A DNA stretch of 32,761 nucleotides from Dehalococcoidia bacterium (GCA_040902535.1 JBBDXD010000023.1:1-32761); one strand, 5' to 3'. Counted from the stretch's first letter, positions 15,741 through 20,894 are shown. Translations and numbers: made by a program. Notes: generated from the letters alone by a model not told the origin.

Positions 15741-16190
15741 ATGGACGAGTTCAAATCGGACCTTGCGGAAAATCTGAGAGCGGTCGAGGTGGCCCGCACC
15801 GCACTGCTGGAGCAGTTGCGAACGTTGCAACCCGACGATCTTCGCAGCACGCGGCGTGGAGGCTGGTCGGTGCAAGAAGTCCTTCGTCATGTGATCGATG
15901 CCGAGGTGTCCTACACAAAGGTCATCGGCTATCTGCGTTCGAGCCCGGTCGATCTCCCGAACGCGACCGACGAAGACGTTGCGTCGCCGAAAGCGGCGGA
16001 GGCTGCGTTGGCGCGCGCGCGAGAACGCCTCCTCGCGTTGATCCAGGGCGTCGACGAGCCGACGTTCTACGATCTTCGCGCGCTGGGGAAAGAGCAGTAC
16101 AGCGTCGTAAGCGTGCTGGAAAACGTCGCCAGCCACGACCACGAGCACTTGGAGCAAATCACGAAGACGCTGGCCTCAGCCCGCGTTTGA
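15741..16190 (+). CDS. DinB-like (DUF664-type) protein
   Basis: A 149-residue helical protein starts at ATG 15741, with GGAGG six bases upstream. It has the DinB/YfiT four-helix pattern: an N-terminal helix, GGWSVQEVLRHVIDAE with the first metal-ligand histidine, and HDHEHLEQI near the C-terminus with further histidines. Members bind a divalent metal. They include mycothiol- or bacillithiol-dependent transferases, but most are uncharacterised. The gene stands alone between a VOC relic and a convergent MBL-rhodanese gene one base away. The substrate is unknown. Confidence 0.8.
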   Translation: MDEFKSDLAENLRAVEVARTALLEQLRTLQPDDLRSTRRGGWSVQEVLRHVIDAEVSYTKVIGYLRSSPVDLPNATDEDVASPKAAEAALARARERLLALIQGVDEPTFYDLRALGKEQYSVVSVLENVASHDHEHLEQITKTLASARV

Positions 16191-16191
16191 T

Positions 16192-17550
16192 CTAGCGCTC
16201 AGTGGCGAAACCGGCGTCTCGCCACGCCCCCATTCCGCCGTCCAGGTTGGTTACAACCTTGTGCCCTGCTCGCTCCAACAGAGACGTGGCGCTTGCGGCG
16301 CGCTCGCCGTGACCGCAGTACGCGACGATCGGCCGATCGTCGGGCAGTTCGTCCACCCGGCGAGCCAACTCGCCAAGTGGGACGTGTATGGCGCCGGGGA
16401 TATGCTCTGCCGCGTACTCATCCCGTTCGCGCACGTCCAACGCCGTTGCTCCGGCCAGCAGGGATCCGCGGACCTCGGCAGCATCTGCCATCCTGGAGTC
16501 AGTGACGGGCAACCATGCTGCTTCCCACACATCGATGCCGCCGTCGAGCACGCCGCCGAACCGCTCGTAACCGACGAGCAGTGATTCGTCGATCACGCGC
16601 TCGACCGGAGCGTCGCCGGTGACGAACAGAAGCTGCGCGCCTTCCGGGACCAGCCATCCCAGCCACACCGCGAACGCATCTCGAAACGCGATGCTCAGCG
16701 AGCCGGGAATGTGCGCCCGGGCGTACGCATCCATCGGACGCGCATCGACGATCACCGCATCGCGTTGCAACGCGTCGAAGTCTCGCGCCGAAAGACGAGG
16801 AGGCGACGGGATATCGCGTCGCAGGCGTGGCACGTCCTGGTTGAATGCCCGCATCCTGAAGTAATACGCCGGCGCAGCCGGGAACGTGCCCGGGAACCAG
16901 CGCACGAAGTCATCCTCGTCCTCCACTCCCAACACCGGGTTCGATGCGCGTTCCTGTCCGAGCGTGGATGCGCGCTCGCCTCCGCTTCCAGCCGAGCAGA
17001 ACGATCCACCGCCATGCGTCGGATGCAACCATGTCTCGTCGGGCAGAGCGCTGAACGCGGTCGTCAACGTGCGGAACTGGGCGCGCGTCAGGCGCTCCGT
17101 CATGTCGGGCGTAATCAGATCGGTGCGCGCGGCCCCGCCTACGATGAGGGAGCCACCGCTAAACAAGACCGGCGGCTGCGAAGCTGTTCTCGCCACGTAA
17201 CTCAGATGCTCAGGTGTGTGGCCAGGAGTGCCTACCGCCTCGATCTCCACACCATCAAAGGCAAATCTCGCCAGCGCACCCACCGGCTCGTGTGGCAGGC
17301 GTGAGTGTGCGTCCCTGGGCAGGAAGAGTTTCGCGCCCACGGCAGCGGCAAGCTCGTGCGCGCCGCTCACGAAGTCCGCATGAAGGTGCGTTTCAAGCAC
17401 GTGTTCTATGCGCCAACGCCGATCGGCCGCCGCGTCTAGATATCGTTGGACCGAGCGATCGGGATCGACCAGTAACGCCGTGTCATTGCCGAGCCCGACC
17501 AGGTACGAACTGTTGCCGAGCCCTTCGTGCACGAATGGAATGATGTTCAT
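16192..17550 (-). CDS. MBL-fold protein fused to two rhodanese domains (persulfide dioxygenase-like)
   Basis: The 452-residue protein has an N-terminal metallo-beta-lactamase domain (1-230) and two rhodanese domains (about 250-350 and 355-452). This order resembles CstB-type persulfide dioxygenase-rhodanese enzymes. The MBL domain has THLHAD at 54-59 and GHTPEH at 110-115. Where these enzymes normally have an aspartate metal ligand (GDxL), it has SGGSL at 131-135. The first rhodanese lacks its catalytic cysteine (VTGDAPVER). The second has C412 in YCGHGER and should be active. An extra HPTHGGGSFC stretch at 176-185 offers another cysteine. ATG 17550 overlaps the MFS stop (ATGA), so translation is coupled. 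The likely role is handling of persulfide or sulfane sulfur in the cytoplasm; dioxygenase activity is doubtful. Confidence 0.85.
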   Translation of the reverse strand: MNIIPFVHEGLGNSSYLVGLGNDTALLVDPDRSVQRYLDAAADRRWRIEHVLETHLHADFVSGAHELAAAVGAKLFLPRDAHSRLPHEPVGALARFAFDGVEIEAVGTPGHTPEHLSYVARTASQPPVLFSGGSLIVGGAARTDLITPDMTERLTRAQFRTLTTAFSALPDETWLHPTHGGGSFCSAGSGGERASTLGQERASNPVLGVEDEDDFVRWFPGTFPAAPAYYFRMRAFNQDVPRLRRDIPSPPRLSARDFDALQRDAVIVDARPMDAYARAHIPGSLSIAFRDAFAVWLGWLVPEGAQLLFVTGDAPVERVIDESLLVGYERFGGVLDGGIDVWEAAWLPVTDSRMADAAEVRGSLLAGATALDVRERDEYAAEHIPGAIHVPLGELARRVDELPDDRPIVAYCGHGERAASATSLLERAGHKVVTNLDGGMGAWRDAGFATER

Positions 17551-18842
17551 GTAACAGCCTCGATCGATGCGGCAGATGTTGGCGGGCGGAGCGTCAAGGC
17601 CGCGATCGCGCCGGATGCGACCGTCAACGCAGCGACAACCTGGATCGCCGTATTGAACCCGAATGCATCGGCGAGTAACCCCGCAGCGAGCGCGCCGCCG
17701 ATCGCGCCGGCATCACGCCAGAAGCGATATACGCCAAGCGCCGTCGCCCGTTCTTCAGGATGAACGGCGTCGCCGGTCGCAGCGAGAAGCGCAGGGTAGA
17801 CCATTGCCGTACCGAGTCCGAGGAGCGCGAGCGCGCCCAACCAGAGGCCGAACTCGTTCGAGAATCCGACGACGGAAATCGCAACCGCCTGCAGCAGCAT
17901 ACCGGCGACGATCAACGGCTTTCGTCCGGCAACGTCGCTCGCCCACCCGGTGAAAAGCTGCAGGCCTCCCCAGATTAGCGGATACGTCGCCGCGAGGATG
18001 GCCACGCGGTTGAGCGACAAGCCATGGCTGGCGAAGAACAACGGAAAGATTCCCCAGGCGAGCCCGTCGTTCAAATTATTCACGAAGCCGGTCTGCGAGA
18101 TGCCGACGAGATGTCGGTCGCGCCACGTTCCCCGCGCAAAACTCCGTCCGAGCGACACGTCGGCCGCACGGCCCCGGGCAGCGACCGACTCCATCGCGAC
18201 AAATGGCGCTGTATCCCGGATGAAGAGCACGCTCAACGCAAGCCCGCACGCGACGAACGCAATTCCCAAATACCACGGCTCGGGACGCAGTCCGTATTGC
18301 GTCGCGATCACTCCTGCTCCAAACGCGGCCGCCGCCACCGCGAGGTAGCCGGCCGCCTCGTTCAACCCGAGCGCAAGGCCGCGCCGGCGCGGACCCACCA
18401 AATCAACCTTCATGTTCACCGTCATCGACCATGCAAGGCCCTGGTTGATGCCGAGCAGCGCGTTGGCGCCGATCACCCACCCCCACGACGGCGCTAAGAT
18501 GATGAGAAAAGGCACCGGTAGCCCGAAGAGCCAGCCAACAATCAGTATCGACCGGCGCGAGAAACGCTCCGACAACCGCCCGGCGAAGAGATTGGCGAGC
18601 GCTTTCGTAAGGCCAAACGTCGCGATGAACGACACCGCGACGGTCTTCGATGCAATGCCGAACTCATCGCGGGCGAGCACCGGCAGGATCGAGCGCTCCA
18701 GGCCCACCATCCCGCCGACGAATGCGTTCGTCGCCACGAGCAGCACGAACTGCTGCCAGTTCGCGGCCACGCCCAGGGTCCGTCCCGCGCCCCGTTTGGC
18801 TCCGCTCGCTCGTTCCGCCACGTTTCCCGTCGCGAGCTTCAT
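17547..18842 (-). CDS. MFS transporter
   Basis: The 431-residue protein has about twelve hydrophobic segments. The MFS loop 2-3 signature appears as AGRLSERFSRRSILIVGW, with an equivalent in the second half (GWASDVAGRKPLIVAGM). The start ATG at 18840-18842 overlaps the DUF4395 stop in an ATGA arrangement, and the MFS stop overlaps the next ATG in the same way. It is therefore the middle gene of a coupled operon under the ArsR-rhodanese regulator. The substrate is unknown. Context would suit export of a methylated metalloid, a sulfur compound or sulfite. The ArsJ-like organoarsenical exporters are also MFS proteins, but no specific motif was recognised. Confidence 0.88.
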   Translation of the reverse strand: MKLATGNVAERASGAKRGAGRTLGVAANWQQFVLLVATNAFVGGMVGLERSILPVLARDEFGIASKTVAVSFIATFGLTKALANLFAGRLSERFSRRSILIVGWLFGLPVPFLIILAPSWGWVIGANALLGINQGLAWSMTVNMKVDLVGPRRRGLALGLNEAAGYLAVAAAAFGAGVIATQYGLRPEPWYLGIAFVACGLALSVLFIRDTAPFVAMESVAARGRAADVSLGRSFARGTWRDRHLVGISQTGFVNNLNDGLAWGIFPLFFASHGLSLNRVAILAATYPLIWGGLQLFTGWASDVAGRKPLIVAGMLLQAVAISVVGFSNEFGLWLGALALLGLGTAMVYPALLAATGDAVHPEERATALGVYRFWRDAGAIGGALAAGLLADAFGFNTAIQVVAALTVASGAIAALTLRPPTSAASIEAVT

Positions 18843-19426
18843 ATTCTGTCGAGATCTGCGCGTCCGAACAGCGCCCCATAGACGAGGGACGGTATGCACA
18901 CGTGCGAGACAGTGATGAGCGCAGCCACCGCGACGAACGCGCCGCCGATGATGTATCCGGCGACGTCGAGACCGGCGTAGAAAAGCGTCCCCGCAGCGAG
19001 AAGCCAGGCGCTGCCCATCGCACAGGCGAACCGCCGCGGAGCGCCGTTGCGGGGCAGTTCCGGCGTCGCCGTGACGTGACGGATGCCGAGGTTGTAGATG
19101 AGGTCGAACGGATGGAATGGCAGTAGCCCGCCCAGCGCCGCGAACACCATCAACCCCCAGAGGATCGGTGGCGAAGCGAGCGCCGTGCCGATCGCCGCGA
19201 TGGCCGCGCACAGCGCGGGCGACATCCGGAGCCAGATCTGCGTCCGCGCGAGCGTCGCGTCGTCGACACAGGAGTAGCCCTGGATGTCGAGCCGATGCTG
19301 AGCGTTGCCGAGAGCGCCATGCGCTACCTCGGCTTCACGCCCGAGAAGCTCACGCCGCGCGTGTCGAACTCCTTCGCGTCGGACTCGTGTTTCGACCCGG
19401 AATAGACGTCCGTTTCTGCGCCCCAT
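18839..19426 (-). CDS. DUF4395 membrane protein, start unresolved
   Basis: The C-terminal 140 residues of this frame form a DUF4395-type membrane protein: GYSCVDDATLARTQ, then hydrophobic helices, a conserved GGLLPFHPFDLIYNLGIRH loop and two more helices. The family is often linked with sulfur genes and has no proven function. The TGA overlaps the MFS ATG. The start is a problem. In this frame there is no ATG, GTG or TTG between the outermost ATG (19426, deep inside the methyltransferase gene) and an ATG at 19225, which would cut off the conserved GYSC segment. A probable one-base indel near 19290-19315 separates the frame from ATG 19314-19312 (minus strand), just after the methyltransferase stop. 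The coordinates give the full open frame, and the true protein probably begins near 19310. Confidence 0.65.
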   Translation of the reverse strand: MGRRNGRLFRVETRVRREGVRHARRELLGREAEVAHGALGNAQHRLDIQGYSCVDDATLARTQIWLRMSPALCAAIAAIGTALASPPILWGLMVFAALGGLLPFHPFDLIYNLGIRHVTATPELPRNGAPRRFACAMGSAWLLAAGTLFYAGLDVAGYIIGGAFVAVAALITVSHVCIPSLVYGALFGRADLDRI

Positions 19427-20118
19427 CGCACGTTAAGAAATCCCACCTGGCCGAGCACCCATTGCCACTCTTCCTTCGTCAGCGCACCGGCGATGCAATT
19501 CGACCACAGCTCGACGTCGTCCTTCGCGTCTTGCGGAACGTCGACGTGCACGACGATATCACCGACCTGGAAGCGGCCGCCGGGCTTGAGCACGCGGTAG
19601 ACCTCGCGCATCACGGCTTCCTTGTCGGGCGTGAGATTGAGCACGCCGTTGCTGATCACGACGTCCACGCTCGCATCGGGGACCGGCAATGCTTCGAGGT
19701 AGCCTTCACGTACGTCGACGTTGCGAAGGCCGAGCGCTTCGGCGCCTTCTCGCGCCTTCTCGCGCATCGCGGCCGTCATATCGACGCCGATCACGCCACC
19801 GGACGCACCCACGCGTAACGCGGCCTGCAGCAGGTCAAAGCCGGCACCGCACCCCATGTCGAGCACGACGTCGCCGGCGCTGATGTCGCCCATCGAAAAC
19901 GGGTTCCCCGTACCGGCAAACGAATCGATCGCCGCCGATGGCAGCGTCTCGTAGGAGGACGCCGCGTAGCCAAGCATCTCTGCGAGCGGCCGCCCGGTGT
20001 GGAAGTGGAATCCCTTCTCCGGATCGAGCGCTACTTCCGTGTATTTGGCGCTGATCCCGCTGCGTAGTCGCTCCCGGTCGACGTTTGCGGCGGCTACTTG
20101 CTGGATCTTGTTCGTCAT
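19324..20118 (-). CDS. SAM-dependent methyltransferase, ArsM-like but lacking an arsenic-site cysteine
   Basis: The 264-residue protein has a class I methyltransferase fold. Motif I is VLDMGCGAGFD (85-95), an acidic loop is GVDMTAAMREKA, and SNGVLNLTPDKEAVMREVYRVLKPGG follows. The overall pattern is that of bacterial arsenite methyltransferases. In ArsM the SN-C-V-NL position is an arsenic-binding cysteine, but here it is glycine (G158). C208 (WSNCIAGAL) matches the other C-terminal cysteine. No cysteine lies in the N-terminal segment before motif I. True As(III) methylation is therefore doubtful. GGGAGG lies eleven bases before the ATG at 20116-20118. It is the first gene of the operon and divergent from the ArsR-rhodanese gene. 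Confidence 0.82.
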   Translation of the reverse strand: MTNKIQQVAAANVDRERLRSGISAKYTEVALDPEKGFHFHTGRPLAEMLGYAASSYETLPSAAIDSFAGTGNPFSMGDISAGDVVLDMGCGAGFDLLQAALRVGASGGVIGVDMTAAMREKAREGAEALGLRNVDVREGYLEALPVPDASVDVVISNGVLNLTPDKEAVMREVYRVLKPGGRFQVGDIVVHVDVPQDAKDDVELWSNCIAGALTKEEWQWVLGQVGFLNVRWGAETDVYSGSKHESDAKEFDTRGVSFSGVKPR

Positions 20119-20157
20119 GTCGATGTCGACCTCCCTTGGTAGTTAGCGGATACGGCG

Positions 20158-20186
20158 ATCCTAGCCGTCCGGCGCATCATTGTCAA
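20158..20186 (-). promoter_or_regulatory. Strong sigma-70-type promoter of the methyltransferase-MFS-MBL operon
   Basis: On the minus strand the perfect -35 hexamer TTGACA (20186-20181) is followed after exactly 17 bases by TAGGAT (20163-20158). The methyltransferase ATG lies 40 bases downstream. The -35 lies inside the operator-like inverted repeat at 20183-20198, so a bound ArsR-type protein could block polymerase directly. Confidence 0.7.
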
Positions 20187-20198
20187 GAGATTGCTTGA
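20183..20198. promoter_or_regulatory. Operator-like inverted repeat for the ArsR-rhodanese regulator
   Basis: TCAAG-AGATTG-CTTGA is a perfect 5-bp inverted repeat with a 6-base spacer. A wider pair, GTCAA at 20182-20186 and TTGAC at 20203-20207, flanks it. The locus is AT-rich compared with its surroundings, as ArsR-family operators commonly are. It overlaps the -35 of the leftward promoter and lies 22 bases before the regulator's own ATG, so both autoregulation and operon repression are plausible. Confidence 0.55.
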
Positions 20199-20219
20199 AT
20201 AATTGACTATCCGCCGGGC

Positions 20220-20894
20220 ATGAGGCACACTGGCGCCGTGGCTCATCGAGAATTCAAGGACAAGCTCTATCCCGAGTTCGCGCGCATCGCCCGGGCGTTG
20301 TCGAGCGATCGACGCCTGGAACTGGTCGACCTGCTCGTGCAGGCGCCGCGACGGGTGGAGGCCTTGGTGGAAGAGACCGGCATGACCATGGCCAATGTGT
20401 CGCAGCACCTCCAGGTGCTGAAGAACGCGCGTCTCGTCGAATCAGAGCGAAGCGGGACCGCCGTCACCTATCGGCTCGCGTCGCCCGCCGTCGTGTCGCT
20501 CTGGTTGGCGCTCCGCGGCGTCGCCGAGGACCGCCTGCCCGAGATAGGCAGACTTCGCGACCAATATGCGTCCGACGTCCGACAGGCGCTGCCACGAGCC
20601 GATCTCCAGCGGATGCTCAAGCGAGGTGAAGCTGTCCTGGTTGACGTTCGTCCGGCCGTCGAGTTTCAGCACGGCCATCTCCCGGGCGCGCTCTCCCTTC
20701 CAATCGACGAATTCGGAAAGCGGCTCAAGGACCTGCCGAGAGACAAACGCATTGTCGCGTACTGCCGCGGAACCTACTGCTTGTTCGCCGACGAAGCGGT
20801 CGCGCTGCTGCGAAAACGCGGCTACGACGCCGTACGCCTCGAAGGCGGCTGGCCCGAATGGATAGCTGAAGGGCGCGCCGTAGCCGTTCGATGA
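20220..20894 (+). CDS. ArsR-family regulator fused to a rhodanese domain
   Basis: The 224-residue fusion has an ArsR-type winged helix-turn-helix (about 15-100), with the recognition region GMTMANVSQHLQVLKNARLVESERSG. A rhodanese domain (about 122-222) carries VDVRPAVEFQHGHLPGALSLP and the active loop YCRGTYC (C182 and C187). The HTH part contains no cysteine, so the classical arsenic or metal thiol site of ArsR is absent. Any thiol sensing must come from the rhodanese loop. It is transcribed away from the methyltransferase operon across a short AT-rich region with an operator-like repeat, a typical local repressor arrangement. A GTG at 20238 is an alternative start; no clear Shine-Dalgarno site decides. 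The ligand is inferred to be sulfane sulfur or a thiophilic agent. Confidence 0.88.
   Translation: MRHTGAVAHREFKDKLYPEFARIARALSSDRRLELVDLLVQAPRRVEALVEETGMTMANVSQHLQVLKNARLVESERSGTAVTYRLASPAVVSLWLALRGVAEDRLPEIGRLRDQYASDVRQALPRADLQRMLKRGEAVLVDVRPAVEFQHGHLPGALSLPIDEFGKRLKDLPRDKRIVAYCRGTYCLFADEAVALLRKRGYDAVRLEGGWPEWIAEGRAVAVR

Follow-up and report, generated by a model that had tools for sequence, protein, structure and literature searches.

Which stress does a bacterium answer with an operon in which a methyltransferase related to the arsenite methyltransferases stands next to proteins of sulfane-sulfur metabolism? The question is raised by a cluster of five genes at positions 16192-20894 of a 32,761-nucleotide stretch of DNA (the window) from a Dehalococcoidia bacterium, where a regulator fusing an ArsR winged helix-turn-helix domain to a rhodanese domain is divergent from the genes of an S-adenosylmethionine (SAM) methyltransferase, a DUF4395 membrane protein, a major facilitator superfamily (MFS) transporter and a metallo-beta-lactamase (MBL) protein with two rhodanese domains. 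Based on comparison of these genes with their relatives, the best explanation seems to us, at a probability of roughly 0.58, to be an operon against sulfane-sulfur (persulfide/polysulfide) stress that includes a chalcogen methyltransferase with a selenocysteine (Sec) or cysteine at its active position.

The five genes and their divergent arrangement, as described by the first-pass annotation, are borne out by the open reading frames (ORFs), by Pfam, which recovers all of the domains, and by tblastn over 18 genomes of the window's order (Chloroflexota), where the gene order is conserved elsewhere. Its view of the regulator, namely a Cys-free ArsR part that must sense through the rhodanese loop and that resembles neither BigR or CstR nor the ars systems, stands as well. 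The fusion is encoded at 20220..20894 on the plus strand (HTH_5 2.3e-10, Rhodanese 6.7e-19), with a probable true start at the GTG at 20238, since homologues open with MAHREF or MSHRAF. Its sole cysteines, C182 and C187, are both located in the rhodanese loop AYCRGTYC (codons at 20763..20780, plus strand) and are invariant in an alignment of 19 homologues, while the ArsR domain has none and hence lacks the CVC-type As(III) site of canonical ArsR. Because no other conserved cysteine is present, sensing must use this pair, and sulfane sulfur is its likely signal. The BigR equivalog model NF040642 gives the fusion 34.6 bits against a cut-off of 155, and the Pfam search returned HTH_5 and Rhodanese only, with no CsoR-family match. 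In the divergent promoter, a putative operator, GTCAAGAGATTGCTTGAA (20182..20199), forms a TTCAA-N8-TTGAA palindrome that also precedes the ArsR-rhodanese genes of Chloroflexota, Rubrobacter and Acidimicrobiia, and in a degenerate form those of Actinomycetospora. The 3.18 Mb genome holds a single exact copy of its 16-base core, and this unique operator-like core together with the rhodanese Cys pair fits a local repressor that would sense through its own rhodanese. A wider regulon was considered but is not supported, as operator matches with one mismatch number 13 against 7 in the reversed control, no clear excess, and the window site is the sole exact core.

The last gene of the opposite strand (16192..17550, minus; PF00753 and two PF00581) encodes an MBL domain followed by two rhodanese domains with one active cysteine, the architecture of CstB and of type III persulfide dioxygenases. 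The loop of the first rhodanese, FVTGDAP, has no cysteine, and that of the second, YCGHGER, carries C412. The closest structures are 3tp9 (6e-75) and then 3r2u (4.9e-39), which we take to be CstB; both have an SGD motif, whose metal-ligand Asp is replaced in the window protein by Gly133 (FSGG). G133 and C412 are conserved in an alignment of 13 sequences, and HxHxD and the other His ligands are retained despite the Asp-to-Gly change. Since the conserved SGD Asp is Gly, ordinary persulfide dioxygenase chemistry is doubtful; a two-His metal site could have unusual chemistry.

The surroundings of the methyltransferase across phyla also point to sulfur. The informative families met most often in 116 flanking ORFs are rhodanese (11), ArsR (7), OsmC (6), MBL (6), DsrE (2) and DUF4395 (2). 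A relative of sulfide:quinone reductase (SQR) is found in 5 loci and in one case fits the type III model at 239.7 bits, below its cut-off of 525, and in locus L076 TusA (identified by NCBIfam) and a DsrE-like protein are encoded between regulator and methyltransferase. An OsmC-family gene directly adjoins the Sec form of the methyltransferase in L062, L085, L089, L111, L113, L117 and L129, seven loci that belong to different lineages.

The gene set itself is conserved. ArsR-rhodanese divergent from DUF4395-MFS-MBL-rhodanese recurs in other genomes of the order, with the MFS protein about 60-79% identical, and the five-gene grouping is not due to chance, because tblastn recovers the same genes together. 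The place of the methyltransferase varies: it comes first in the window and in genomes G002 and G007, last in G013 and G015, or lies elsewhere. Over 79 methyltransferase loci, matches to ArsR-rhodanese were found in 14, to MBL-rhodanese in 11 and to this MFS protein in 9, counts that are lower bounds as many contigs are short. Shorter versions of the cluster occur in Anaerolineales, in Rubrobacter, in two Actinomycetospora isolates (Actinomycetota) and in one proteobacterium; the MBL match is weak (29-31% identity) in those of Anaerolineales and Rubrobacter, and the metal-ligand Asp is retained in the MBL proteins of L113 and L127. The two Actinomycetospora loci, L128 and L137, the latter of Actinomycetospora cinnamomea DSM 45771, are from cultured isolates and combine a Sec methyltransferase with ArsR-rhodanese, MBL-rhodanese and MFS.

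The methyltransferase (19324..20118, minus strand; Methyltransf_31 7.7e-35) is the Cys form of a selenoprotein family. Most orthologues have an in-frame TGA, one per gene, that aligns exactly with Cys208 of the window protein (TGC, 19495..19497, minus strand). The codon at this site is TGA in 76 of 83 homologues and TGC or TGT in the other 7, window included, and the motif reads LWSNCIAGAL in the window and LWSGUIAGAL or LWTGUIAGAL in its relatives. Directly 3' of the UGA lies a hairpin resembling a selenocysteine insertion sequence (SECIS), GCUCUGCU-GGA-AGCAGAGU, which has all 8 pairs in 53 of the 76 genes with UGA and 7 or more in 69, with two-sided (compensatory) changes at three pairs. Slid control positions average 2.4 to 4.2 pairs and the Cys genes have 3 to 5; the contrast with the Cys genes is the stronger argument, since protein conservation constrains part of the hairpin. 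The window gene, with TGC instead of UGA, lacks it (z +0.6, 5 of 8 pairs). A reading of UGA as Trp or as a reassigned stop was rejected in view of the one fixed site, the SECIS-like hairpin 3' of it and its co-occurrence with selB and tRNA-Sec.

SelB scores over the cut-off in 12 of the 18 genomes of the order. Neither SelB over the cut-off nor SelA was found in the window genome (G000, 96% complete) or in G002 (72% complete only), the two Cys-form genomes, and in these two no strong tRNA-Sec was found either, the candidates scoring 44-47 bits against 66-82 in Sec users; scores near 47 bits, including one of 47.4 on contig G000:C9, were taken as background, and those of 66-82 as true. In the phylogenetic tree, the window protein and its sister in L076, 79% identical, form a fully supported pair nested within the Sec clade, which indicates that Cys replaced Sec in the window lineage; this lineage has probably lost the Sec machinery and now uses Cys. 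Two further observations concern the same family: in L088 (9913-10434), and also in L119 and L122, a second, divergent methyltransferase that adjoins the Sec methyltransferase has an in-frame TGA and is possibly another selenoprotein, and the methyltransferase frames of L099 and L136 have two in-frame stops each, the Sec position accounting for one.

A family that in many phyla favors Sec as its catalytic residue may suggest detoxification of selenium or tellurium, with the Sec/Cys methyltransferase converting selenide into volatile methylselenides and the sensor, through its rhodanese, answering selenium as well as sulfur. Rhodaneses are, in fact, able to carry selenium. We nevertheless regard this explanation as unlikely, for the window lineage retains the operon after loss of its Sec machinery, and the SQR, DsrE and TusA neighbors point to sulfur.

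Resistance to arsenic or organoarsenicals would require an arsenite methyltransferase that tolerates the loss of two cysteines, with the MFS protein exporting methylarsenicals. ArsM/AS3MT is indeed the closest family in both fold and sequence: in an AlphaFold2 model with a mean predicted local distance difference test (pLDDT) of 92.3 the window protein is a class I SAM methyltransferase with an ArsM-like fold, its 13 best PDB matches are all ArsM/AS3MT, and it scores 2e-71 with NF041537 and 227.6 bits with NF008823, below the cut-off of 263. Furthermore, NCBIfam and reviews label the Sec family 'arsenite methyltransferase', UxxG (PMC13188914). Against this, the As(III) ligands of CmArsM, C72, C174 and C224, align with T70, G158 and C208 of the window methyltransferase, and throughout the 83 homologues position 70 is T, V or I and position 158 is G, with Cys at either in none. 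As a positive control, a second paralogue across the order (16 canonical sequences) has all three ligand cysteines, so that such an ArsM is present in the relatives too. In the window genome it belongs to a canonical arsR-arsM-arsC operon outside the window (L171:5844-7420, on contig G000:C15), whose ArsR has ACVCGD, ArsM has YGCG, SNC and GCAAG, and ArsC is of the CxxxxxR type. No arsenic transporter or reductase family (ACR3, ArsB, ArsC, ArsP) is among the 25 commonest neighbor families, and the regulator has no ArsR CVC motif. The window protein therefore looks like an ArsM paralogue devoid of the As(III) triad rather than an ordinary arsenite methyltransferase, arsenic is unlikely to be its substrate, and because a separate ars operon with the complete triad exists in the same genome, an arsenic role of the whole cluster is unlikely as well. 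The first-pass annotation had seen here a mixture of persulfide-type and arsenic-type parts; the former is upheld by the sulfur-type neighbors, whereas the latter is not supported, given the missing triad and the canonical operon elsewhere. That annotation did not extend to the operator, to the Sec/Cys character of the methyltransferase or to the lost metal ligand of the MBL domain.

A more general operon for thiol-redox or electrophile stress, in which C182/C187 would sense oxidants and the methyltransferase would modify a small organic thiol, could account for the OsmC-family neighbors, a family that is frequently associated with the reduction of peroxides, and sulfane-sulfur sensors can cross-react with oxidants. 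We consider it quite improbable, since the two rhodanese-containing proteins and the SQR, TusA and DsrE neighbors favor sulfane sulfur.

The remaining genes of the minus strand encode the DUF4395 membrane protein (18839..19426; PF14340 4.5e-15, body from about 19300) and an MFS transporter of 431 amino acids (17547..18842; PF07690 6.9e-45). The DUF4395/MFS and MFS/MBL junctions are 4-nt overlaps (ATGA), and these genes are therefore translationally coupled. The ATG at 19320, where comparison with relatives would place the start of DUF4395, does not share the frame of the body (region 19280-19326), while in L076 and L078 the start is in frame, so the window gene either contains a frameshift of 1 nt, which may be genuine or due to assembly, or has an unusually distant upstream start inside the methyltransferase gene. 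That the window genome carries a decaying copy, whose genes ceased to function together once the Sec machinery was gone and DUF4395 had been frameshifted, is suggested by this frame mismatch and by Cys in place of Sec but is very improbable, given that the other four genes and the operator core are intact and that the Cys form remains so close to its sister in L076, whose DUF4395 is intact. Next to the operon, a DinB/mycothiol-transferase-like gene (15741-16190) is convergent with its end, and in L098 the methyltransferase is likewise followed by a DinB gene.

For the sulfane-sulfur operon that we prefer, the following course of events may be proposed. Without stress, an ArsR-rhodanese dimer would occupy the palindrome and repress transcription in both directions. 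When sulfane sulfur rises, C182 would be persulfidated and would form a di- or polysulfide with C187, whereupon repression would be lifted. The CstB-like MBL/pseudo-rhodanese/rhodanese protein would then take up and transfer sulfane sulfur, Sec or Cys208 of the methyltransferase would bind the chalcogen, either sulfide or persulfide and perhaps selenide, to be methylated from SAM, and the MFS exporter and the DUF4395 membrane protein would handle the product or sulfur oxyanions. Several points weigh against this proposal. The substrate of the methyltransferase is its weakest link, being deduced from the neighbors and the missing As ligands only, with selenide as the main alternative. In many of the methyltransferase loci the vicinity lacks any sulfur gene (many of their contigs being short), and a type III SQR above the cut-off was not found in the window genome. 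The methyltransferase is missing from several ArsR-rhodanese/MFS/MBL clusters (L059, L060 and L061), which makes it an optional partner. Finally, DUF4395 may be broken in the window genome.

More tentatively, and with odds that we place clearly below even, we hypothesize that the entire family filed as arsenite methyltransferase is in reality a Sec/Cys-dependent sulfide or persulfide (or selenide) methyltransferase of sulfane-sulfur detoxification, accompanied by a new type of sensor, ArsR-rhodanese, whose signaling cysteines lie in the appended rhodanese, outside the ArsR fold. Should this hold, a selenoprotein family that is abundant has been misnamed and given the wrong function, and the fusion would define a sulfane-sulfur sensor built from an ArsR DNA-binding domain with a borrowed rhodanese for sensing. 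Comparison of the Cys form, expressible in ordinary E. coli, with the Sec forms would likewise offer a route to understanding what bacteria gain by investing selenocysteine in a methyltransferase, and soil and groundwater Chloroflexota might be an added source of volatile sulfur compounds.

In the literature, no combination of ArsR, rhodanese and DUF4395, no 'ArsR-rhodanese' and no Rv0324 with rhodanese was found, DUF4395 appearing in two unrelated papers. Nor was a description found of ArsR-rhodanese with this gene set, of As triad loss across the subfamily or of a link between the Sec methyltransferase and a sulfane-sulfur operon, the novelty of the neighborhood having been only partly checked. 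The Sec form of the methyltransferase domain is already known (PMC9312934, PMC2398784, PMC13188914: NF008823, UxxG), as are sulfane-sulfur operons (PMC5823870, PMC7533328).

Among the latter, CstR-CstA-CstB-Sqr of S. aureus and ScCsoR-PDO-rhodanese-TauE of Streptomyces (PMC7533328) are regulated by sulfane sulfur and, like the window operon, unite a multidomain MBL-rhodanese protein with a transporter. The window differs in having an ArsR-rhodanese instead of a CsoR-family regulator, MFS in place of TauE/CstA, an additional methyltransferase and DUF4395, and Gly for the MBL metal-ligand Asp. The BigR-Blh operon of Xylella and Agrobacterium (PMC5823870) likewise pairs an ArsR-family repressor with an MBL protein linked to sulfur transfer, but the Cys pair of BigR lies within the ArsR fold, whereas the ArsR domain of the window has no cysteine, and the Blh model gives 29 bits against 625. 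With the Sec 'arsenite methyltransferases' (NF008823 UxxG, NF041536, NF041537, NF047649; PMC13188914) the window protein shares the same domain over a full-length alignment, UIAG corresponding to C208IAG; in contrast to these models it has Cys, scores below every cut-off, lacks any AhpD, DUF2284 or UXPK fusion and is linked to ArsR-rhodanese, MBL-rhodanese and MFS. The H2S/MeSH S-methyltransferases MddA, MddH, MddM1 and MddM2 (PMC12904073) share the proposed SAM-dependent chalcogen methylation and the role in sulfide stress, yet by their description they belong to other families (MddM1 UbiG-type, MddM2 UbiE-type, about 200 amino acids), with no Sec/Cys site described. The MBL-rhodanese architecture being known too, the parts of the system have precedents, and it is their combination and the reassignment of the methyltransferase that are, as far as checked, new.

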